Made by a program: the position numbers and the translations under genes
The notes under the pieces: model-generated
Databases searched by the model: none
The model's input: only the letters and a program-made list of their open reading frames with translations
What the model was told of the DNA's origin: nothing
Shown: piece after piece, positions 3,957-60,441 of the stretch
How positions within the stretch are numbered: the stretch's first letter is position 1
Layout of the letters: each line of letters begins with the position of its first letter
From: Lactifluus volemus
Lineage: Eukaryota > Basidiomycota > Agaricomycetes > Russulales > Russulaceae
Length of the DNA: 64,000 nt
Direction: 5' to 3'
Assembly (NCBI GenBank): GCA_022376515.1
Contig: WTXI01000136.1
Span: forward strand, 1-64,000

Positions 3957-5740
3957 AGAGCGGGGAAGTGCTTATCGACTTATAAATCGATGGTTTTTGT
4001 ATGAGAGCGAGATTGTAGATCATGATTTATCAGACGCAGATCCGCACCCGGATGATATTTTAGGCGTCCGAGAGAGTCCTTCATGTTGTTACGTACTATC
4101 TAGCAGGATCTCCCATTTATTGTCAGAAGTGAGCTTGAGGCTCAGTTTTTGAGGAAACAGACTGAGGAAAGAGAGTTGTAGAAAGGAGAGTCCGAACACA
4201 AAAATAAATGTATGGGATCATGATAGTCGCACGTGGGACTCGGATTTCGGTGCCTGGGGTCTCCAAGTCTGGGCCGTGCCTCCCCTCACTGACTTGAACA
4301 AGCTTCTCCATACGTGCAGGTGTGCAGATAGAGTCATTGAAAACTAGGAGAACGTTTCGAGTAATCTAATCGGCACACCTCACGATGAGCGGGCTCGATA
4401 CGAAGCAAAGAAGAGCTAAAGCGCAAACGGGAGGGAGAAAGTAACTTGAATAGGTAAGCAATCATGGTGACAGTGATGAGTGAGAAGATGAAACACAGCA
4501 GAGAGGCAAGAAGGGCGACACGCAAGGAGGGACATGCGGTAGCATCCCGCGTTCGACTACCGCGTCCGTCCAACGCAGAGTGTCGAAGACGGCATAGAAA
4601 GTGAATCAGACACCGTGTAATTCAGCTGTCATAAAGAAAACAAATTGGCCATGGTAACACCCGTGTGTCACTGACAGTCATGCAGAATCGATGAGTGTAG
4701 CCGTGTTTCTGTTGTTGATTAGTGCCACTCAGTCTGACAGCTCTGATGAAAATGAATTCAACTTGAGTAGCACGTGTTACTATCACTTGACAGAAGTGAT
4801 AGTAGTGGAAGTGACAGCCAGGCATCTATTCTAGTGGTAAACATAACTTTTAAGAGAAAAACTTCATGCACGTTCATGCCAGAGACCTTGGGAAAGTGGA
4901 AATTCACAATAACGATAATCCGGGAAGCGTTCCGGACACTTTTCTCACAGTGCGAGCTTTCAATTTCCAATCTCCGATATCTCCGATCACTTTTGAGCGC
5001 CTACGTATGGAGCGGTGCCCCTATAAGTTACTGTACTCACACTTGCTCAATCCCATTGTGCTCCCATTGTGTTACCTTCATACAGCGCGAAATGGTTTTT
5101 GTTCTTGAGTTTTGACACAATTATCTTTTACCTATATCACCATCCACTGAGAGCATAGAACCACTCGGGGTTATATCATTATTACAAGGAGGTAAAAATC
5201 ACCATTATCACTTCCCACACTTCTAAGTAAGCGATAGTACTGTACAGTCAATGTGTCAGTCAAATTCCAAGCGCAGTTGGGGGTGGTAAGCGCTATTTCA
5301 AATAACTGCAATGAATTTAGACGGAGTCATTTATGTAGCTGCTAAACCGCTTTGAAGTCCCGCCGATTTGACGCGATGTCTCGATTCTAACACTTTCACA
5401 ACGCAGAAAATGAGATTTCCTCAGGTTTCAGGCACCAACATATTTTTTAGTGAACCTATAGCAAATTTGTGGAATCACATCATGCAGATCGTAGGTTACG
5501 GTAGCACTGAATGGTGCTGCGCAACTCACATTCTTCTGCCGAGAAACTCCACTGGCGGGTTCTTACCCCATGCCTCATATAGTCATCTGCCAGGGCTCCG
5601 GTGACAGGTTTCGTAAATTTCGTTTAAATGCTCTAACCTCATGAGCTTCAATCCCTCATCTTTCTGACCTTGCCATTATCAAGTCGCTCTGTGGCGGGTC
5701 CACACATCTCGGAAACTCATATTGATTTGACCGCATCAAC
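3957..5740. other. gene-poor spacer
   Basis: About 1.8 kb between the MFS pair and the DUF6534 gene. Open frames here are short, overlap on both strands and show no recognisable domain. I see no inverted repeats or RNA gene. The left part must hold the MFS promoter. Confidence 0.4.
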
Positions 5741-7850
5741 ATGGGTGCCTCTGCCGTTGTAGATATCCGACCTATCTTTGGGGCCGCCTTCGCTGGGTTT
5801 TTCGTCAGCACCGTGTGCGTCTGATTCCTTTTCTAGTCATCGTTGTCGACCTCTTTTTGAGTTGGCGGGCCCCTAGCTTGTTTGGTATGACAATAATTCA
5901 GGCGTAAGTCAAAGTGATCTTTCAAGCTCGCTTCGGTTCGGATTAATATCTTGGTTCATGCAGATGGACTTACTTTTGGTAATGAAATCTAACCCTACAA
6001 AGTTGTCACGAAAATAAGCCGTTGGTATTCCCAGGGATAGTCGCAACGAAGACTCGAGGTTACACAGATTATTCATTGCGATCTTGATGTACGTGGTGGG
6101 ACCCAACACTTGACAGCGTCTTACAAGTGGTGGTCTTACTAGCGTTCTAAATACCCTGCACACAATTCTAGTCTTTCATGCGCTCTACTGGTGAGATGGC
6201 CAGTGTGCCCTCCCAACCGTCCTTCGAAAATCCATTATTTTAGGTACCTGATCCTGAACTTTGGCAACGTTGACAATCTAAACTTCAATATGTGGTGAGT
6301 TCTCTCATTTCAGTGGTTGTCACCTCTAATTTTCACCCTTAGGTCTATAAATGTACGCCCCCCATCGTGTGAATCTCGCCACCTGATACATACCACGTGT
6401 ACTTCATGTAGATTCAAGGCGCAATTGCAGTATGCTATGCTTTGCTGATTCATCCAATGGTTGACTTACCATTACTTGTAGCCTACCGTTATCTTTTTAG
6501 TCCACCTGTTAGTCCTTGGTCCTTTTCAGCGAATTGACGTCCTGATCCGCCAGCGTAGTTGCTACGCAAGACGAATCTATATCTGTGGGCATTTCCTCCA
6601 GCAACTTTCTGTATTCCCGATTGTGACGTGATCGCTTGACAGTAAGCCAGAGGTTGATTTTCCCTGTGTTGATCGTAAGTACCCTGTGTGGGCGACTTAT
6701 CGTACATTTTTCATCTATGTCATATTTGTAGGTGGGTTTAAGTAGCATTATCCCCAGTAAGCACTTGCTCCATTACGTGATGGACTTCAAGTTCTTGTGA
6801 TCAGCTCACCCGCGTTTTTGCAGTCATCGGATGGGGTGCGTTTCGCGCTCGTTTTTCACACCCATTCACAAATACTAACCCTTGTACCCCAGATATTGTC
6901 ATCAAAGAGTATATGTGATTTCACTTGACCTCTCCGGGGAATTTGACGCCCATTATCAGGTTTTCCCTCAAACAATTCTCTCGTTATGGCATCTTTACCG
7001 TATGCCTCGATGTTCACTTCACTTTTCAACAGCGCATGACTTCTCAGTAGTGGTCCGCCTCCTTGGGATTGCTCGCAATGTTCTTGGCGGACATACTGAA
7101 TGTCGTGGCGATGTGTTGGTATCTCTATCGCAAAAGAACTGGGCTCAAGAGGCAAGTCATGGCTTTGCTATTCCGAGATGAAAATCAAAAATCCCTTCAA
7201 TGCTCGTGTACAGAAGTGACACAACTATCAAGACCCTGATGACCTACTGCATCAGTACGGGCCTTTTGTCAAGGTGAGACTTGATAACACATCACGTGGC
7301 CACGATAAATGAATGAAGTTAGCATCATTGCTCTTATGTCGTTTATTTTTGTAAGCGTTTCTCTTCTCTTCCTTGTGCCACCTTACGCCGTGATTAGTTC
7401 TATACCGCGCCCACTACTCTGCTTTCGGACGCTTTATTCGGGACGGTAGATAAATGTTCGTCTGCTCTTATGTAGAGGATGATTTTCTGAAATCATCATT
7501 TCAGGTCATGTCAACTCCCTCCTCGCCATGTAAAAAGTACTTTCAGTCTTGAGGAGGGATTGCTGACATGTAAGGCTTTCAGGTTGAATAGCCGCGAGTC
7601 AATGCTTGGGCGGGAAGAGACTCCGGACGCTAGTACCTTCTACATGTCTTCGATCACAACTTCGCAACAGAAGGGAACATACCAAGAGTCAATGCCCCGA
7701 GTTGGACAACCTTCGGCTCAGGAATTCGTTGACGTGCGCCAGTCAACTAGTAGGGACGTTCCGCCGTGCAAGCGTGATGACAACACGGAACCTAGCCTGC
7801 CCAACGTCGAAATATTGGTACAGATCCCTACACTTTGTTGCGGTACCTGA
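5741..7850 (+). CDS. DUF6534 domain integral membrane protein
   Basis: A heavily interrupted gene belonging to the basidiomycete DUF6534 family of multi-pass membrane proteins, whose function is not known. Joining short exons gives MGASAVVDIRPIFGAAFAGF, then VLFGMTIIQAWTYFW, RDS-type loop residues (DSRLHRLFIAILM), NTLHTILVFHALYW, YLILNFGN, AYRYLFSPPV, the late-family motif ADILNVVAMCWYLYRKRTG, and HVNSLLAM joined to LNSRESML by an intron at about 7529-7571. The conserved 'YVNSLLA.LNSR' boundary supports that last splice. The tail (7572-7850) is polar and variable, as in relatives. The stop is at 7848-7850. At least seven introns of 40-100 bases are needed, and around 6500-6850 the path is uncertain, so a disabling change there cannot be excluded. 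It probably sits in the plasma or vacuolar membrane. Confidence 0.6.
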
Positions 7851-49477: not shown

Positions 49478-51113
49478 ATGAATCGTATCCGCTCGAAGCG
49501 CAATTTCAAGTCACTCCAACTCGACGTTACGGCTCAACCTCCGATTCCGCAAGAGCCAGATCCCGTCCCAATGCGCGCGCCGCCAATGGCAAATAAATCG
49601 GTAGTGGCCGCCGCAGGAGGTGCCAAAAAGCGTCCGCCGCCGATGAACCTCAAGCCCAAGGCGCCGATCGAACAACAGCCTTCAACAGCAGGCGAAATCG
49701 GGAGCGCGATGGGAGGTATGATGACTACAGGTGGTGCGAGTATCCTCACCGTCACGTCGGGACCGACATCGGCGCCGGCTAGCGGGACGATATCGGCCAA
49801 CTCGAAACGAATGACGTATCATACGACGTTGTCGAACAAACTTGCGAGTTTGGATATGAGCGCGGAGGTCAAGTATGATTTGAGAGATGAAGATCTCAAG
49901 GATTTGCATGAACTTGGACAGGGAAATGGTGGGAGCGTGAAAAAGGTGGAACATGTTCCGACGCATACCATCATGGCCAAGAAGGTAGCCTTTTTCCTTT
50001 CTTCCCCGTGTGTGTGTTTTCGCTCAACATGGGAGTTTTTGTTGGTAGATTGTCCTTATCGACGCGAAGCCATCGGTTCGCAAGCAGATCCTACGAGAGC
50101 TGCAGATCATGCATGACTGTCACTCGGAATACATCATTTCGTTCTACGGCGCATTCTTGTCTGATCCCAATATTTGCATCTGCATGGAGTTTATGGACAA
50201 GGGTTCGCTCGATGGCATTTACAAACGCATTGGCGCGATCGACATTGACGTCGTGGCCAAAGTGGCGCATGCCGTCCTCGAAGGTCTCACTTACCTCTAT
50301 GATGTCCACCGCATCATTCATCGCGGTAGGTCCTTATCCGTGGGTTTCGAGGCTATGTAGGGGCAGGTCTCTAACTCGCTCGCAACGATCAGACATCAAG
50401 CCGTCTAACATTCTGTTCAATTCCAAGGGTCAGATCAAAATTTGTGATTTCGGCGTTTCGGGCGAATTGATCAATTCGATCGCGGATACCTTTGTTGGGA
50501 CATCAACTTACATGAGCGTGCGCACCATCACCATGGTACTGATCATTTCTAGTTATGCGTTGCTGACGTCCGATCATGTCTTTGTAGCCTGAACGGATAC
50601 AGGGTGCACAATATACCGTCAAGTCGGACGTCTGGTCTCTCGGGATCTCGCTCATCGAGCTGGCTCTTGGCCGATTCCCGTTCTCCGAGTCTGCGTCGGA
50701 CGACGATTCTGATCTCTCTGAATTCGAGGGCACCCTCTCACCATCACGCCCAGTACCGCTGGAGAAGGTGAAGGATGAGAGCAAGGATAAGAAGCATAAC
50801 CGGCGGAAGAGCAAGGGCGTGACCCTTCAAGGTGGTGGCATGACAATGAGCATCTTGGAACTGCTACAACACATTGTCAATGAACCAGCGCCGAAGCTCA
50901 CGCCGGAGGGCCGCTTTCCGAAAATGGCTGAAGATTTTGTCAACAGCTGCTTGCTAAAAGATCCGGATCAACGACGGACACCGAAAGATCTCATGGTGCC
51001 GTATTTTGTGCCCTTTTGACGCACGTGTGTTGACCTTTTCCCAGAATCACGAGTGGATCGTCCACGCACGAACGACAAGCTTTGATCTCGAGACGTGGGC
51101 GAGTATAGTCTGA
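49478..51113 (+). CDS. STE7: MAP kinase kinase, STE7/Fuz7 type
   Basis: Dual-specificity kinase that phosphorylates a MAPK on Thr-x-Tyr; relatives act in the mating and filamentation pathway. A disordered Pro/Ala-rich N-terminus of about 100 residues precedes the kinase. Motifs: [17 protein letters not shown] (P-loop), [20 protein letters not shown] (catalytic Lys, split by the intron at 49985-50049), [58 protein letters not shown] (catalytic loop, after an intron), [20 protein letters not shown] and TSTYMSPERIQG. The activation segment has the MAPKK Ser/Thr pair SIADT. A 50-residue charged insert ([18 protein letters not shown]) precedes [18 protein letters not shown]. The last exon reads [20 protein letters not shown], with TGA at 51111-51113. 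Confidence 0.93.
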
Positions 51114-51611
51114 CAGAGGATAGGTGCGCGTTTCTGATACCCGGTTTCTTCTGGATGGGGAGGCTCATGGTCGCCATAATGAGCAAAGGCTGTCGGGTGC
51201 GATGCTGGTGCGAGAGCGTTCGTGAAGCCATTGCGATGTATGTATTTTAGAATCAATCACCAAACACTCGCTTCTATAAACTATTGTCTCTCTTTACCAC
51301 TCGTCGTTGGTCGCGGTGATATCAGACTGCGCCTGATCTCTCTCGGACGCTTAAGCCGTGATTGGCGCCCGACTAGATTTGATCCATCCGAGATTTACCT
51401 TCCACCTTTTGCTCGGTTGACCCATTTGGGTTTTTCGGGCGACAAAGCTTACCCTTGTCAAACAAAAACTTTCTGTTGTGGTTGTTGTGGTTGGTGGACC
51501 CAAAGTTCGAAAAAAGTTGACGCACGTGTGATCTGATCGACGGTGCAACCGTACCGAACGTCCGACTTGGTACTAGTACAAAATAAAAAGAATTTCTAAA
51601 AAATTTTGAAC
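51114..51611. other. spacer left of the TIR element
   Basis: About 500 bases of ordinary sequence containing the MAPKK 3' region. No gene recognised. It ends at the TTAA (51612-51615) that borders the element to the right. Confidence 0.4.
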
Positions 51612-51642
51612 TTAACGCCCTACGAGAAATGTCTTACAGTAA

Positions 51643-51870
51643 ACTAATCGCAATTAATAGAAATTAAATATTGATCTAAGGAAACCGATAACAGTTGATA
51701 TGGATTACATTGATTGATATCGGCTAATAGAATTTGAATATCATTCAATACTTTTCAATCACCAGTTGAATTCTGTTGAATAATAATGATTGCATGTCAC
51801 GAGATTTATTATTCAATCTAAGGCAACTGATTGGAATTGAATAAAACATATCGCGCACTATCGTTCCAGT
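51643..51870. repeat. AT-rich subterminal zone, left
   Basis: About 230 bases dense in ATTGAAT/ATTCAAT-like words (TGAATATCATTCAATACT, AATTGAATAAAAC and others). The zone at 54112-54341 inside the other end is alike in composition and words. Confidence 0.6.
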
Positions 51871-52299
51871 TTATCGAACGCGCAAAAACCCTGCATCGAG
51901 TACTCACTGTGTCCGGTCACAGAGCCGACTTCAGCGTAATGACCTATATTACTATTTGTAATTGTTTGTCGGATCAACTTTGTGTTGCGCTGATTCGAAT
52001 GCATACATTTCTTCCTTCTTCCTCTCCTTCTCAAAAGTGTCCCCCAGTTCTTTCCTCCGCTGCCCGTGAGACTTGTATACTCTCCACAGACCTTCGTGAG
52101 TGTCTCCCTTCCTGCTTTCTTCAGACCAGCATCATTTGGGTCTTTTTGGGGGGCCACATCTTCAATTGAGCTAATGGCCGTGCTTTTCTCCCATTGCCCC
52201 CCAACGTGCTTCCTCTCTGCCAGCGTGCCTCTCCTACTTACCACCACCACCATGGCATCACTCACTGGCATCACCGTTGTCACCTGCCTCCCCTCCGGC

Positions 52300-52905
52300 C
52301 CTCCTGTGCTGTTGCCGTCATGAAGAGATCCTCACGTTGTCGTCGGTTCAGCAAATTCACAAATCTTATGCGTCTGCAGACACGGCATTGATGTACTTTG
52401 CCCAGGATGGCTGTTACCCAGGCCCAATTTCAGGGAAAAAGCCCTCTCCTGTCACTTCCCACATTGGCTTCAACGAGAATGCGACACTACCGTTCGAACC
52501 CGGCAAGACCTATCGACTCCGCACTGAACACTGGTGCGTTTGCCGTGTTCTTCTTCTGGATTGATGGCCACGATATGCGTATTATAGAACCCGACGGCGT
52601 CCGTATACCCTTGACATCTGCGTTGGAGGCTAATCTGATGCCGACAATATATCGTAGACTGACGCCGACGAGCACCCCATCAACCTTCTGAGCGTCACTG
52701 TTGCTCAGCGTTATTCAGTGTTGGTTACTGCGCGCAATGATGCTGGCTGTAACTGGGCAATTCATGCCAACAGGGACACGACCATGTTCCCGATACCCTT
52801 CAGCCTAGTGAGTTCGTTGATTGCAACACTCGATAGTGGATAATTTCTGAATTCCAGACATAACCTCACCAGAGCAACAGACCTCCTCTTGACCTTGGCA
52901 TCTCC
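52300..52905 (+). pseudogene. ferroxidase (FET3-like multicopper oxidase) fragment
   Basis: Captured internal piece of a high-affinity iron uptake ferroxidase. Readable parts: ALMYFAQDGCYPGPISGKKP, NENATLPFEPGKTYRLR, then (after a frame change) NTGAFAVFFFWIDGHDMRI and IEPDGV, VTVAQRYSVLVTARNDAGCN and WAIHANRDTTMF. DTLQP then joins NITSPE across an intron at 52809-52859. This is the second cupredoxin domain of FET3 (family: G.NATLPFEPGKTYRLR..NT.AF..F.FWIDGHDM.IIE.DG). Copper-ligand regions at both ends are missing and the frame is broken at about 52530, 52620 and 52785, so no enzyme can be made. The retained intron shows capture from genomic DNA rather than cDNA. Confidence 0.78.
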
Positions 52906-53589
52906 ATGCCAACCCCCCCTTCCCCTGGCCGCCGCCGCTGTCAGATTGGTTTTTGTTTTCTATGGCTAACTTTTTTTCCCTTCCAGCGTTACCTGCAACC
53001 TTGGTGCGTGTGGTGTTATCAAACTCTGCTGGGTGTGGTTAATACCTGGAAGCGAGCTCTTTTCTCACCCCGTTCCCTTTTTTTTGCTGTAGTTTGGGGA
53101 AAAGTGGTGGTACTGCCTCGTATGAACGGCAGGTGGGGTCTTCAACATCTTGCTATTGATGGGCGCAAATCTCATTGGTTTTGTCCTCGGTGTGGACGGT
53201 GCGTAGTACTTTGTCATGAAATGACTGGTGGCTGGGATGGTATGTCTCTCCTAAAGACCTTTGTAACACTATATTTCGTTGATTGAGGTAATCCCAGGAA
53301 TTCGATCTGCGCAAACGATGGGGTAGCCAACACCTTGTGGTGGTCTGGGTCACACTGTCATTGGCAAGGTCAGCCCTTCGCTGCAAGGGATCCCATCTTT
53401 GACATCTTTCTTACAGTCTTTGTTGGTCACTGGAGCCATGTTCCCATGGCTGATTTGGTCCACCGGGACGATGCCTGTGCGTTTCAGTCTTTCCCTATTG
53501 TTTCTGCCTTACCCTTTATGACTAGAACTCGAGAGTGTTTAACGGCCTTGATGGTTTCCAATACAGATAGATCGCCAAACCCAAGAAGA

Positions 53590-53960
53590 AACAAAAAACA
53601 ATAAGTGCTTGTAGGTTGATTGCGTGGTGGCTTCTTCTGCACCAGACGTTGCAGGTGCATCTCGAGCACCTTGGCACTTTTCCGCATCCTCTGCTTCTCC
53701 ACCCACTCATTCAGCCACAGCTCGTACTCCTTCAATGTCGTTTCCAGCTCGTCGAGTTCCGTCTTGGTGTATCGTCCGGTGGCTGTGCCCGCCCTGCTCT
53801 TCTGCGGTGAGGTTCGCGCACGCATTGATGAGGAATAGGCGCATGTGCCAGTTCCACATCTGACTGGTGTTCAGCGCCTCTGACCTCACCGTGACTGCTG
53901 CTACCACTGCCGTCCTGTGGAGAGTCCCATGATCCGTCCCAAATCCCCCCCCCTCGCACA
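53590..53960 (-). pseudogene. LHS1/HYOU1-type HSP70 C-terminal fragment
   Basis: Minus-strand piece of the ER-lumen HSP70-like nucleotide exchange chaperone family (LHS1/HYOU1). It reads EALNTSQMWNWHMRLFLINA, then CANLTAEEQ. One extra base shifts the frame, and it continues GRYTKTELDELETTLKEYEL, WLNEWVEKQRMRKSAKVLEM and HLQRLVQKKPPRNQ. About 14 codons usual between 'NEWVEKQ' and 'AKVLE' are missing. The ATPase domain and the ER retention end are absent. It lies antiparallel to the ferroxidase fragment inside the same element. Confidence 0.75.
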
Positions 53961-54111
53961 GCAGCAAATCCAAGCCCATGCTGTTAGGCCGAGGAGCTCC
54001 CACGCCCATGCCCAGAGCAGACGATGTGGAGGTGGTACACGGTCAGTGTCAAGGATGACTTAGATTGCTTGATGCGTAGCTGGACAGAGGCAAGGCGATT
54101 AGGATCGAGGG

Positions 54112-54341
54112 TAGAATAAAATTGAATAGAGCTGTAGCTGTAAATAGAAAATAAATGGTGATCGATTCAATTTTACCTGATTCAATCGTGCAATCAAACG
54201 AATTCAAATCCGATCCGATCTAATATTCAATTGAATTCGGAAAACTGAAAATGTTTTCGATTTGTCCATTCAATTAAATCGCAAAAAGACTCATCCGTTG
54301 ATAAAAATTGAATCAATTCAACTAGTTAAATTTACTTCGAA
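54112..54341. repeat. AT-rich subterminal zone, right
   Basis: Dense in ATTCAATT-like words (CATTCAATTAAATCG, ATTGAATCAATTCAACTAG). Mirrors the left subterminal zone of the TIR element. Confidence 0.6.
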
Positions 54342-54371
54342 TTACTGTAAGTCATTTCTCGCTGGGCTTAA

Positions 54372-55867
54372 CGTCTGGGGCTTCGTAAGTTACACGTAAC
54401 AAAAAAGTTGCCAAAAAAAAAAAAAGGGAGCTGAATCGAGGCACGAGTTCGCCGCCGCGTGGGAAAGTGGCGATAACAGATTTCCGAGTCATACGCAAGC
54501 AATGGCAGGTGATACAGTATCCTTGGCATTTTTTTCCTGTTAATTCCCACGTGGCCCTGCACGATGCACGGTGTTCAAAACCGTTCAACGTTCAACAATA
54601 ACAATTACCCCCTCTGAGATTGAAAATATACCGTTAACCATTTATTGTTGTATGAGTCTTATCTTTCCTAGCCAAGGGGAGGCGGCGGGGGTAAATCGAA
54701 CAATCTTCTTGCCCCTGTCCACATTGTACTTAGCGCATGGCTGGTTCCTTAATAGCTCCACACTTTCTGATGGACCATGTACTGTACTGTACTGATTCAG
54801 ACAACGCGGCTACTATATAATCATCTTCAGAAACGTCAGCATACAGTATAAGGATATACTGCACTGTAGTGTGAAGGGGTGCAGTTGAGATTTTTATTTT
54901 TATTTTTACGTGTCGCAGTCCGAGGGGACAGCCGCCAAAAAGCTTGCATTTGTATTGCTTTGCAGTAAATCATGTTCATTTACGGCGGCCAAGTTCCGGA
55001 CTCAAGAGACGTTGTTTGCCCCTCGACATTGGTCGCGTCGCAATAATGTTAAGAATTATGCGTGTGGGTGCAAACGTCCAAGTTGGTTATGGTTATAAAC
55101 CTAACACACTAACATCGTCATTTGTTTCGTGCTACCGTAGAGTAGCAAATGTTCACTCCTTTGTTAGAGGGAGTACTAGCTTAGTACGACTTGAGTCATG
55201 TCCGCATCTGCGTCGCAGCTCTAGCAAGCAGCCGGACAAATAGAGGCCAAAAATAATAATTTTGAGTTGATCTAAGAGTATGGGTAGCAAACATGTCACG
55301 GTGGCCCGCGTTGCTCATACGAGCTTGTACAAGTAAAAGAAAATACATTTCCCTTCAAGTTTTTTGATGAACTACTATAGACAGCAAGGTAAAGACATCC
55401 AGTGGTGAGATCGTGATACGTTGAGGCGTGAGGTATCATCGTAATACTACTACTGTACAAAACAAATCCGAGACCGAGGCGCAAAACCGAAAGGAAAACA
55501 TGCATGTGATACTAAAGCAGCACCTATATATCCACAGCAGTAAGTCATCACAGGACGCATCACGAAGGAAAAGAGTAAAAACTGGAACGCGGTGAAAGGG
55601 TACAGCACGCTGCCCGGGAGAGGGGGGACTCGGACATGTGGATTAGCAAAGGAGGGTAAGTGCGAGGCGGGCTCAGGTAGCTCGGCTCGCAGCCGAAGGC
55701 ATTGGGGAGACATAACGGGAAAAGGGATTAAGACCGATAATCGTGGTAGCCGAGATCCAGTGATGGTCGTGGCATAAAAAAAAAAGTTGAAGGGAGTATG
55801 GCATAGAGGGGACGAACGAGAGAAAGCAAAAAAAAAGTGGGCAGGGGTCATGCTGACTTCACAATGA
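54372..55867. other. spacer between TIR element and P450
   Basis: About 1.5 kb with no exon chain recognised. A minus-strand open frame (55450-55851) codes a Pro/Phe-rich sequence of low complexity and does not look like a gene. It should hold the P450 terminator. Confidence 0.4.
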
Positions 55868-57870
55868 TCACAGCCCGCGCAGCTCTCGTTCTCGTGCTAG
55901 GAGAGCCTGAGCCTCTGGGAAACGAGGTGTTATCTCGTATTTGTAAGGTGCTGGATATCTGTGAGGGGGGGGGGGCACACATGATTAATAATCTCGCTTA
56001 TCAACTGGCGGCCGTTGCCATGCTCACAATAAAATTCCTTGTTCGACGAACCCGTCCACGTCTAGTGGAAGTAACTGGCCAGAGCCGTCGTCTTTCTTGC
56101 GCTCTATCTTGCTTGCCCACAACATCATTGCAATGTCGATGAACAACGAGTTAGTCGCTACGTTACGACCGAGGCATATCCTCCGACCAAAACCAAACGT
56201 AAAATGGCCTTCCTCTTTGGTGTCAGACGGTCCGGGAAGAACGTCGCCGTTAGCGTCGAGAAATCTAGCCGGATTAAAGTGCGCCGCGTCCTCGCCATAG
56301 ATATCGGGGTCGCGGTTCATGTGCCACACATTCGGGATGCAAATGCTGCCTTTGGGAATGAACATCCCTTCGTACCAGTCATCCTCGGAGGACCGATGCG
56401 GGACGGACATTGGAGTGATGGAGCTCCAGCGCAAGATTTCTTTTACCATGGCGCGAATGTAGGGCAAGTGTGGGTAGTCCTCAAAGGTCGGCAGACGATC
56501 ACGTCCCACAACCTCATCGAGTTCTATTTGTGCCCGAGCCTGCGTCTCGGGGTACGCCAACATTGCGAGTAACCACCAAGCCATCGATGTCGCGGTAGTG
56601 TCGGTACCACCAACACTTGCAAAAGTAGGGTATATTATGAGTTCCTCGTTCTCCGCTTTGTGATCATATGATAGCACTTACTACAGAGTGCCCGCAAGCC
56701 ATGAGAGTTCTTTCGAGGATAGTTTGCTTTTCTCGGCATTACGAATCAATGTCGCGCCTAGACTTTGATCGTCATCTCCCTTTGCCTGTGGGAAACAAGT
56801 CGTATGTATGCATGATAACTCATATTCTATGAGTTGGGAGACGCTCATACAACATTGAGCCGCAGTGGCTCCATAAGGCCTTCAAACATTTCTGTGTCTT
56901 TTTTGTGCCAGGTCTCAGCGTATTGTTTCCACTTCGCCAGCCTCGTTTACAACCAATCTAAGATCGATGTCGATGCAATATACATTGACGATACTTACCT
57001 GCTGGGAATATATTGCATCCAGTTAAAAAACTCGACTAGATGAGCTCCTGGACAAGCGGCCCGAGCAAGACGTTCACCAAATTCGTCAATCAAGTCAACG
57101 ATACGATTTTTCTCAGATGTGATTGTTGGGTGACCGTAGACGATAGATAGGATCATCGATGCTGCAGATCGGCGAATGTTCTTTTCCAATTGAGCAGGTT
57201 TAGCGAGCGAGTCAGAGGCGAGAAGGACAGCCTCCGTCATCTGTGTCTCACAGAATTGTTTAACGGATTCTTTGGAAAACCTCTCGTTCGCTATCTTCCG
57301 CATCCTACGCCAACTTGATGTTTCGTATTCAGTTTCTGCGTCGGTTTGGAAAGTAGGGAGGTATTTACACATCACCGTAGCGGCAGAATGGGAAGAGGAG
57401 ACCACCACACATAATTTCGGATGCGACAATAAGTGGAGGCCTATCAGAGTATATCGCCGCGCGTCGGTCTAAAAGGTCTGCGGCAACTTTCGGAGAGTTA
57501 AGGATGATCATGGGCTGGCCAGCTGCATTGAGGTAGATAAGATCTCCTTGAAAAAGAGTCCGGTAGGCTTCAGAGCGTGGGCAGAGACAGCTGAGACAAG
57601 GGACTGACCGTATTTCTTCTGCCATTCGGAATACTTGAGCCACTGTCCAGGCTTCAACTCTAGGAGATTTCCTATGATCGGATAACCACGGGGTCCTGGA
57701 GGAAGCTTGCGATATGGACTCGCGAGATAGTGAGCTGTGCAAAGGACAACAAGACCAAGAATGAGGCCAATAGAGAGCGTTTTGTTATCCTGTATGGCCT
57801 GTCGTAGTTGAGGAATTGAAATTTTAGAAACCTCGTAGGGGCCGAGGGGCATAGCAAAGAAAGAGGACAT
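55868..57870 (-). CDS. cytochrome P450 monooxygenase
   Basis: Membrane-anchored heme-thiolate monooxygenase of secondary or xenobiotic metabolism; substrate unknown. The start MSSFFAMPLGPYEVSK at 57870 leads into a membrane anchor (LSIGLILGLVVLCTAHYLAS) and the proline-rich hinge YRKLPPGPRGYPIIGNLLEL. Then DLIYLNAAGQPMIILNSPKV, AADLLDRRAAIYSDRPP, WRRMRKIANERFSKESVKQF and ACPGAHLVEFFNWMQYIP. The I-helix has GGTDTTATSMAWWLLAMLAY, the K-helix KEILR (ExxR), PERF-region FNPARFLD, and the heme-binding loop FGFGRRICLGRNVA (Cys ligand). An intron of about 65 bases with a poly-C run joins VDGFVEQGILL to YPAPYKYEITPRFPEAQALL and ARERELRGL, with TGA at 55868-55870. Without that intron the frame would stop at 56024. 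An ATG at 57852 is an alternative start. Confidence 0.88.
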
Positions 57871-60441
57871 GACCTTGGGATTACGACCGGCGACCGTTGG
57901 GTGGGATGAGGACACAGTTGCCCCTGGTTTATATCCATCCGCGTTTGTGGTGCGCTTATTCCTACTGCCGCATGCCTTCAGTTGGCCACGGGACCGTGCC
58001 TGCTTTCCTTCCCTATTAAGCGATTGGGTGGGCAAGCGAACAGTCGAGAACCACTAATTGATCGACGCTTGCCTCACTTGGAGGTCGGCAACTTGGCACA
58101 ACAATCAGAAATCCACGGCGCAATGTGATAGGCGAAAATCCATATAGATAGAAGCGACAACGGTTCGCACACGTGTTTTTGTGCCATATACTGATAGCTT
58201 TCCATGTATCATAGCGGGAGTCGTGTTGAACAATAGGGCAACCATTTCGGTCAGAACTGAACCAGAGAGCCAATGGCCATTGGCCATGTGTGGTAGTGGA
58301 TAACCGAGACTTAGCTTGACGACGTTCAAGTTGGCACAGCATGACAGCTGCGAGGTTCAGACTCAGCTCGCCTATTAGTATAGTACGCGCAGGGACCTTT
58401 CGCGTACACTTCGATTACACGGCAGACAACGACGATGATCAAGAATGGAATACGATCTACATAGAATACAATTTAGATAACTACGGTCAGGGCGTCGATC
58501 AATAACAACAATAGATGAGCCAGACAGATATCTTGGCCCGTCACGCGTCACGCTTCAAATTGTCACAAGCCACCACCATGATTTCTACGACAAAATAAAT
58601 AAATATGGAATTTGCTTGCTTCCACCGCGAATTATCGCAGTACCTCTCCGAAGCTGATTGATGTGTAAACAAGCGTGAGAGTTTCGAGATTGACGGTTGC
58701 CCGCACTATGGTCACACCTCCATATAGGTGACAGCTTTCATATTACAGTACCGTAACCACAGCAGCGGGCCTCTGAGCCTAGGAGAAACCATGGAAGGGC
58801 TGAATACTAGGTGCATCTACAGTACATCAAGGGATCTACCCTATGAAGCTACGTTTGATTGACGCACAGGGGGGTTGAAAGTGAATAAGCACGAACATCT
58901 CTAAGATGCAATATGTGGTGGTGGAATTGCAAAATCGACTGTTTTTGGACGACTGTCCCATGCATAGCAAGGGGCCGTGACCGCGTGGCGCGAGTTTGTC
59001 AATGGGAGACATGGAAGATTATGTACCTGAGTGACATTACTTCGAAAGTAGAGACTGGCCCAAGCCGCCCCACACGGGAGGCATGCTGCCGTGAATATTC
59101 TGGTACGTCAGCTGGCATACGGTGCACCTAGATACTTATTTTCTATGCGTATTGGGTTTTGCGCATCGAGTACCTGTGGCATTGAAAGCAGACTATCTAA
59201 GAGAGCTTGAGGGGATGTGGTGCCAATTCGTGTCGAAAACGGCGAGTAGGACAAGGGAACGAACCAAACAGGTACGAAAATGTCGGGCGAGAATGTAGGT
59301 AGAGAGTCGTCGGAAGTGGGACGGACGAGCAGGAAGGAGCGCGGGGCTCTCTCAAAGAGTGAGTGTACAAAGAGACGGGTCGAAAAGTAAAGATGAGTAT
59401 TAACAAAATTTCGGAGTTGCGTGCTGGATGTGCCATGACATCATCTTGGCCACGACACTCTTGCATCCGAGCATCGTAGCCGAAATGATGTCGTGGCACA
59501 TTATGATCCAACGAGACGATGAGGACGAGGCGGCGATTCAGGAGCTTGTGAAACGACAGAAGATGGCAACGAGAATGGAGGGAAAGGAAGTGGAACAAGG
59601 CAGGACGAGAGTGATGAGAGGAGGTCGAGGTAGTAGAACTAGTCGAGATCATGGAATCACCAGTTACCGGGGGAGTGCTAAAGTGGTTATCGTAACGGTA
59701 AAGTTCCTTACTGTATGAGACGCGCCGTTGAAGGCAGCATCCGAGGATGTATTATGACTGCGTCGCTGATATTAGCTAGACCCTGTTGATCCAATTGGTG
59801 CGCTATGGAAGCCATCCGCGGCGGGAACTTGTTGTGAACCTAGAACGACGTTCGCAACCCAGGTGGAAACTTCCCGCCCAATCACGTCACCGGCAGAATC
59901 GAAATGTCAGTACAAGATGTTAGTTACAACAGAAGGACACGGTTGCAAAGGCGTCGAACTCTAACGCTGGGAAAAAACGTGGGCCAGAGTCCGGCACCGA
60001 GACGGCTCATCGTAGGGAGAGAATGAAGAACATGATGCGGGTTGTAGAAGAGACGGCAAGATAAAGGTGCACACATTTAGACGAACGTCTGTGAAATGCG
60101 CTCTCCTTTCAGAACCATGGAATGAACAGTGGTACTGATTCAACTTTGGGTTCACCAGGAACGTGTTCCTGCTCCGAGCATGACACGAAGAACAAGCTGA
60201 TGAAGGACTTGTGGGAAGAAATCGCCGTTGCTTAAAGTGCAGACCCCTGGTTGGCAGTTATCAAGTTAGAGACCGGCACTGTCACGGAATCCGTTCCAGT
60301 CTGAGTTCCGCACGATGCACGGTCAAGTGTTCACCGATTCGGAGGAAAGCGAGGGATGATGATGTGACGGCCAAAAGCGGAGTTGTGAGGGCTGGCTCCA
60401 AATAGTCAAGATATCATCGAGTAAGAAAAGTAAGATGCAGC
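57871..60441. other. 2.6-kb non-coding spacer
   Basis: Contains the P450 promoter at its left end. The frames at 59197-59652 (-) and 59428-59718 (+) overlap each other and show only low-complexity charge or Ser/His bias. No domain, RNA gene or repeat recognised. Confidence 0.4.

Follow-up and report, generated by a model that had tools for sequence, protein, structure and literature searches.

The 64,000 nucleotides of the window, the start of contig WTXI01000136.1 of Lactifluus volemus, contain a segment with inverted ends and pieces of two host genes, which raises the question of what kind of transposon carried these pieces and moved them. A sequence-only reading had proposed a Pack-type element (gene-carrying, non-autonomous, bounded by terminal inverted repeats, TIRs) of piggyBac-like nature. 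We compared the window, which lies on contig C42, with the 62.4-Mb assembly of 628 contigs. A PAS-domain protein encoded in the window was 99% identical to a JGI sequence and 73% to Russula earlei, the best of its named hits, which points to a Russula-like host. The segment is very probably a non-autonomous cut-and-paste element that has its ends in common with an 8-kb transposon and carries DNA-level pieces of at least two host genes, a Fet3 gene and an HSP70-family gene. The Pack-type assignment was supported by TIRs, a 7-bp target-site duplication, the absence of an internal transposase, and host-gene copies with identified donors for both fragments, along with further copies and an empty site. 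The piggyBac-like part of the proposal failed: the duplication is 7 bp rather than TTAA, and the elements with matching ends contain an open reading frame (ORF) for a Transposase_21 protein, a close homolog of which has a RAG1/Transib-like predicted fold.

Comparison with other copies set the limits of the element at 51618 and 54366, so that the borders first drawn (51616..54367) were off by one or two bases; the majority of long matches elsewhere in the genome start at 51617 or 51618. The core inverted ends described at first, 51624-51642 and 54342-54360, were reproduced with 18 of 19 bases identical. A pattern taken from the core bases had two exact matches in the window and none elsewhere in it when up to three mismatches were allowed, versus a mean of 0.07 matches over 100 shuffles, only one of which gave two. 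The TIRs are 25 bp long, CCCTACGAGAAATGTCTTACAGTAA on the left (51618..51642, plus strand) and CCCAGCGAGAAATGACTTACAGTAA on the right (54342..54366, read on the minus strand), as established by inverted-end comparison, pattern scan and copy comparison. They begin with CCC at 51618 and finish with GGG at 54366, as the CCC-start ends had suggested. TTAA is present on both flanks (51612-51615 and 54368-54371), but it does not lie directly outside the ends, being separated from the left TIR by two bases and from the right TIR by one. The exact repeat around the element is the 7-bp sequence CTTAACG, of which TTAA is merely a part, with its left copy at 51611..51617 and its right copy at 54367..54373 on the plus strand. 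Because TTAA stands at unequal distances from the TIRs, a TTAA duplication would put them out of register. An Rfam scan of 51000-55000 gave no match.

The search for further copies of the ends succeeded, and some of the copies enclose other content. The core end pattern had 66 matches in the genome at up to two mismatches, versus one for the reversed control. Hand pairing of these matches gave 24 elements. Eleven of them measure 1.95 kb, six 8 kb, and five 2.6-2.7 kb; these five, which include the window element, have its cargo. The remaining two are 2.9 and 2.6 kb long. A wider end pattern, CCCWRYGAGAARTG, had 139 matches versus 15 for its control and revealed, among the matches listed, a sister family with CCCAGTGAGAAGTGG ends; these ends were taken from ten of at least about nineteen further pairs among the same matches. 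Three more pairs came from a scan of already examined loci, which required a 7-bp direct repeat. Between the window element and the six 8-kb elements, identity over the right 203 bp (element 2547-2749) was 94.6-95.6%. In the copy alignment, the segment 53428..53634 (element 1811-2017) was unmatched in the other four same-cargo copies (C445, C137, C313 and C601).

Perfect 7-bp duplications flanked 33 of the 34 pairs selected by their ends alone, and 36 of 37 when the three pairs from the conditioned scan were included. The sole non-perfect pair, on C257, has the same duplication minus one base. The 36 perfect pairs occupy 33 distinct sites, one site being common to C38, C211 and C400 and another to C445 and C313, and the consensus of the 33 is NNTSANN. 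When both strands were counted, position 3 was T and position 5 was A in 95%, and position 4 was C or G in 90%; both the T and the A were present in 30 of the 33 sites. All 24 hand-paired elements fit 7 bp in the chosen register and none fits 8 bp, and with the scan pairs added the figures are 27 and 0 (n = 27). CCC..GGG ends were found in 37 of 37 pairs, which had been chosen by ends including or adjoining CCC or by the conditioned scan. TTAA, which the sequence-only reading had expected beside further copies, occurs in only 2 of the 33 distinct sites, that of the window included.

An unoccupied site, sought as a check on the insertion, was found on the homologous contig C223 of the same assembly. 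When joined, the flanks of the window element gave a 98% match to C223 that spans the junction (query 160-600), where C223 reads ...GAACTTAACATCTGGGG with a single target copy, CTTAACA. The right flank matched C223 at 97% over 3.5 kb, versus 76-77% for nine other long matches. On the strength of these identities, C42 and C223 appear to be homologous, the former carrying the element and the latter lacking it, and since C223 has the site empty, the insertion looks polymorphic. The two copies differ in a second structural feature: query 1-160, left of the site, matched C223 only 6.8 kb away, at 91%, and about 6.8 kb of extra DNA (C223:373745-380555, opposite window position ~51477) lies left of the empty site with no counterpart in the window.

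The ends of the window element also flank the six 8-kb elements, which have an uninterrupted Tnp2/Transposase_21 ORF; the copy at C334:648867-656842 was examined throughout and the other five at their ends. The longest ORF of the C334 element has 907 aa and the second longest 338 aa. In Pfam the 907-aa ORF matched Transposase_21 (E 1.3e-10), with a sub-threshold match to DUF4218, and the other tested ORFs of this element matched no family confidently. With the last 654 residues as query, six copies were 99-100% identical and have the 907-aa open frame, while 23 further matches, which start at query residue 1 and reach at least residue 532, were 75-83% identical, 20 of them without an internal stop. 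Sister-family elements of 7.5 kb (C2, C15 and C90:249167) have 81%-identical frames without stops, and 7-bp duplications. A sequence search of the PDB with a transposase profile returned only two chance-level CheA matches (E 0.42 and 0.51), and a fold search was needed. The fold predicted for P0001, a 92%-identical homolog (mean pLDDT 78.5), matched RAG1 and Transib. D316, D406 and E706 (P0001 numbering) were invariant in 47 sequences and are probably the catalytic residues.

Downstream of the transposase in the 8-kb C334 element lie a 238-aa ORF with no Pfam family (element 5463-6176) and a protein-level tandem repeat, PTAPEVEIxDAA.. (6279-6752), either of which may be a candidate DNA-binding partner. 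A much more distant transposase group, 30-32% identical and with a 524-aa open frame, was found in six places (C261, C299, C618, C274, C75:12278 and C596:533749).

The cargo consists, as first described, of two broken host-gene fragments in opposite orientation, with no transposase inside the element. Fragment 1 (52332..52867, plus strand; element 715-1250) spans 536 bp and comes from a multicopper oxidase gene of Fet3 type, identified by host-locus matches and Pfam. It was 88% identical to C334:988816-989368 and 87% to C35:676911-677466, with abrupt match ends, and two of its three pieces matched Cu-oxidase above the cut-off. Pfam placed a Cu-oxidase_2 domain in the ORF at the C35 donor locus, and among solved structures this ORF matched yeast FET3 best (1zpu, E 3.6e-25); a PDB search with a 50-aa piece of the Fet3 cargo gave no match. 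Judged by the reading frame that flanks it in the window and in the host gene alike, a 59-bp GT..AG intron would lie at 52599..52657 (plus strand). Since this intron is kept and the reading frame is shifted by 2 bp, fragment 1 appears to have been copied from DNA and is broken. Fragment 2 (53606..53882, minus strand), 277 bp long, comes from the 3' region of an HSP70-family gene and was assigned by its 78% match to C607:788749-789065, an alignment with a 42-bp internal gap. PF00012 (HSP70) matched C607:786528-787364 and 787562-787723, on the same strand and 1.0-1.4 kb upstream, and these domain matches probably belong to one gene with the fragment 2 donor, which we take to be LHS1/GRP170-like. 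The HSP70 identity rests on these PF00012 matches, a PDB search with the second donor exon having given no match. Pfam assigned no confident family to the fragment 2 readings or to the remaining interior parts tested, and no donor was found for the interior at 51893-52331, 52868-53605 and 53883-54091.

Related cargo is present inside sister-family elements as well. In an unrooted tree of ten Fet3 fragments, the window-class copies, the sister-family copies and the two host loci were separate; as the tree is unrooted, it does not discriminate between one capture and two. A further interior segment, 320 bp long (52985-53304), has copies with identical borders at three other places (C164:7374, C579:79606 and C249:37604; 89-91%) and another, at 86%, at C249:28615.

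Next to the TIRs lie AT-rich zones of matching character, as had been noticed: AT content is 68.8% in each of the 250-bp end zones (51643..51892 and 54092..54341), versus 48.3% in the interior and 50.4% in the window. Both zones were defined by composition and by repeated TTGAAT/ATTCAA hexamers, which number 15 in the two zones together (shuffle mean 1.6, maximum 6 over 500 shuffles). In a test of this motif, which was chosen by eye, on nine elements related to one another, all nine had 9-15 copies, where shuffle means were 1.5-2.3 and maxima 6-8, and none of the 500 shuffles reached the observed number. Repeated subterminal motifs are a trait of CACTA transposons, which the window element and its partners resemble in this respect.

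Three other explanations were weighed against this evidence. A piggyBac-like element inserted at TTAA would account for the TTAA on both flanks and for the CCC ends. However, the unequal spacing of TTAA from the two TIRs and the Transposase_21 ORF in same-ended elements do not suit such an element, and the target-site set, with TTAA at 2 of 33 sites, led us to reject piggyBac, to which we give virtually no credence. PF13843 (DDE_Tnp_1_7) had no match in the genome, a result of little weight since 14 control genomes were equally silent. That the fragments were never captured, and that the element was instead assembled by chance around genomic DNA already holding them, is extremely improbable. 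The three interior stretches with no identified donor would allow it, yet the two donor loci lie on different contigs, the fragments have opposite orientation and abrupt match ends, and the five elements that share this cargo stand at four different target sites.

It is also very unlikely that another superfamily with 7-bp duplications (hAT7, Kyakuja or P-type) mobilises these elements, the Tnp2 gene being a passenger in those of 8 kb. Galileo, of the P superfamily, reportedly makes 7-bp duplications, which counts in favour of this explanation. Such duplications are recorded for hAT7 and Kyakuja (PMC12730594), and the 8-kb element has further ORFs, the longest of 338 aa, to which Pfam assigned no confident family. 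On the other side, the Tnp2 ORF, at 907 aa, is by far the longest in that element. The four ORFs tested matched no hAT, KDZ or P-element family in Pfam, and none is included in the 14 families that the 47 homologs matched at E <= 1. The 7-bp length, moreover, is found in both families with 81%-identical Tnp2 ORFs, and Kyakuja is described with CA..TG ends and without TIRs (PMC12730594).

The Tnp2-linked element was compared with known systems. Members of the EnSpm/CACTA (CMCT) clade mostly end in CA..TG and make duplications of 2-5 bp (Kojima 2025, PMC12730594). The elements described here are like them in the Transposase_21 protein, the RAG1/Transib-like predicted fold, the TIRs and the existence of non-autonomous derivatives, and unlike them in the CCC..GGG ends and the 7 bp. 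Plavaka elements, with TGT..ACA or CATCA..TGATG ends and 2- or 3-bp duplications (PMC12730594), differ in both features. Kyakuja (KDZ group), also found in mushrooms, makes 7-bp duplications, but its transposase belongs to another group and it lacks the CCC TIRs seen here (PMC12730594). A precedent for CCC ends with Transposase_21 is given by the TRC elements, SmTRC1 and its insect relatives, which have a Transposase_21 protein and CCC-starting TIRs; they differ in their animal hosts and in 2-bp duplications, reported for 7 of 14 SmTRC1 copies and for two insect elements (PMC1636069). Because the enzyme fits whereas the ends and the duplication fail the definition, we place the partner in the CACTA/RAG clade as a Tnp2 transposon but not as a canonical CACTA element. 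Searches of open-licence literature, mostly at the level of listings and without Repbase, turned up no Tnp2 element with 7-bp duplications. Within that literature, and as far as searched, 7 bp with CCC ends is an undescribed variant of the Tnp2/CACTA/RAG clade.

With regard to cargo, Pack-CACTA elements are reported from Arabidopsis. As in Pack-TIR elements, a non-autonomous TIR element with host-gene fragments has been multiplied by transposition; the differences are the basidiomycete host and the Tnp2 partner with 7-bp duplications (PMC8277862). In the ascomycete Pyrenophora tritici-repentis, transduplication by a hAT element multiplies a non-transposon gene (PMC3538342). That too is a fungal DNA transposon carrying gene sequence, but the gene there is expressed, whereas the fragments here are broken.

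We propose that a Tnp2-type transposase with a RAG1 fold would bind the TIRs and end zones, excise the element, and insert it at NNTSANN sites through joins staggered by 7 bp. An element may have acquired the gene pieces within it through template switching or gap repair, and multiplied afterwards. By a slight preference, we take these data to reflect a mushroom Tnp2 (RAG1-fold) lineage whose stagger would have shifted to 7 bp at a symmetric NNTSANN target and whose ends would have shifted to CCC..GGG. In the clade from which the V(D)J recombinase arose, no wider stagger would be known. A gene-fragment-carrying family, apparently still polymorphic, would be driven by this lineage in a basidiomycete.

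Several observations weigh against the main explanation, that of a Pack-type element moved by the Tnp2 transposase. Mobilisation of the window element by the Tnp2 transposase is inferred from sequence, and while the right end is close to the 8-kb elements, the left 229 bp are only ~75% identical to them. The fold was predicted for the homolog P0001, and its match to RAG1 has ~10% identity, with TM-scores, normalised by query length, no higher than 0.39; the invariant cysteine pair is C425-x3-C429, a C-x3-C motif, where the clade has C(2)C, followed by H(3-4)H, between the second D and the E. A register shifted by -1 still matches 7 bases in 9 of the 24 hand-made pairs, and one shifted by +1 in 4 (12 and 6 of 27 with the scan pairs), so that a single pair is ambiguous and the length and register are fixed by the whole set only. 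The 24 pairs leave out 18 of the 66 core-pattern matches, among which one pair on C223 is evident. The final base of the target differs between the window (G) and the empty site on C223 (A). Finally, in four of the nine elements the count of the commonest hexamer of any kind was reached by at least one of 200 shuffles.

Duplication length serves as a superfamily signature, above all for elements without a transposase. This rule would be broken by a Tnp2/RAG1-fold enzyme that leaves 7-bp duplications, and elements of this sort would be misfiled as hAT, P, Kyakuja or piggyBac. Such an enzyme would also offer a natural comparison for the determinants of stagger in the RAG/Transib/CACTA clade. For the carriage of gene fragments by a mushroom DNA transposon, one assembly here provides donors, partners with uninterrupted ORFs, and an empty site.

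To the right of the element, the window contains at 55865-57874 a gene that we take to encode a cytochrome P450. Its long matches to paralogs number nine, at 76-77% identity, and include three on C100 and two on C34.
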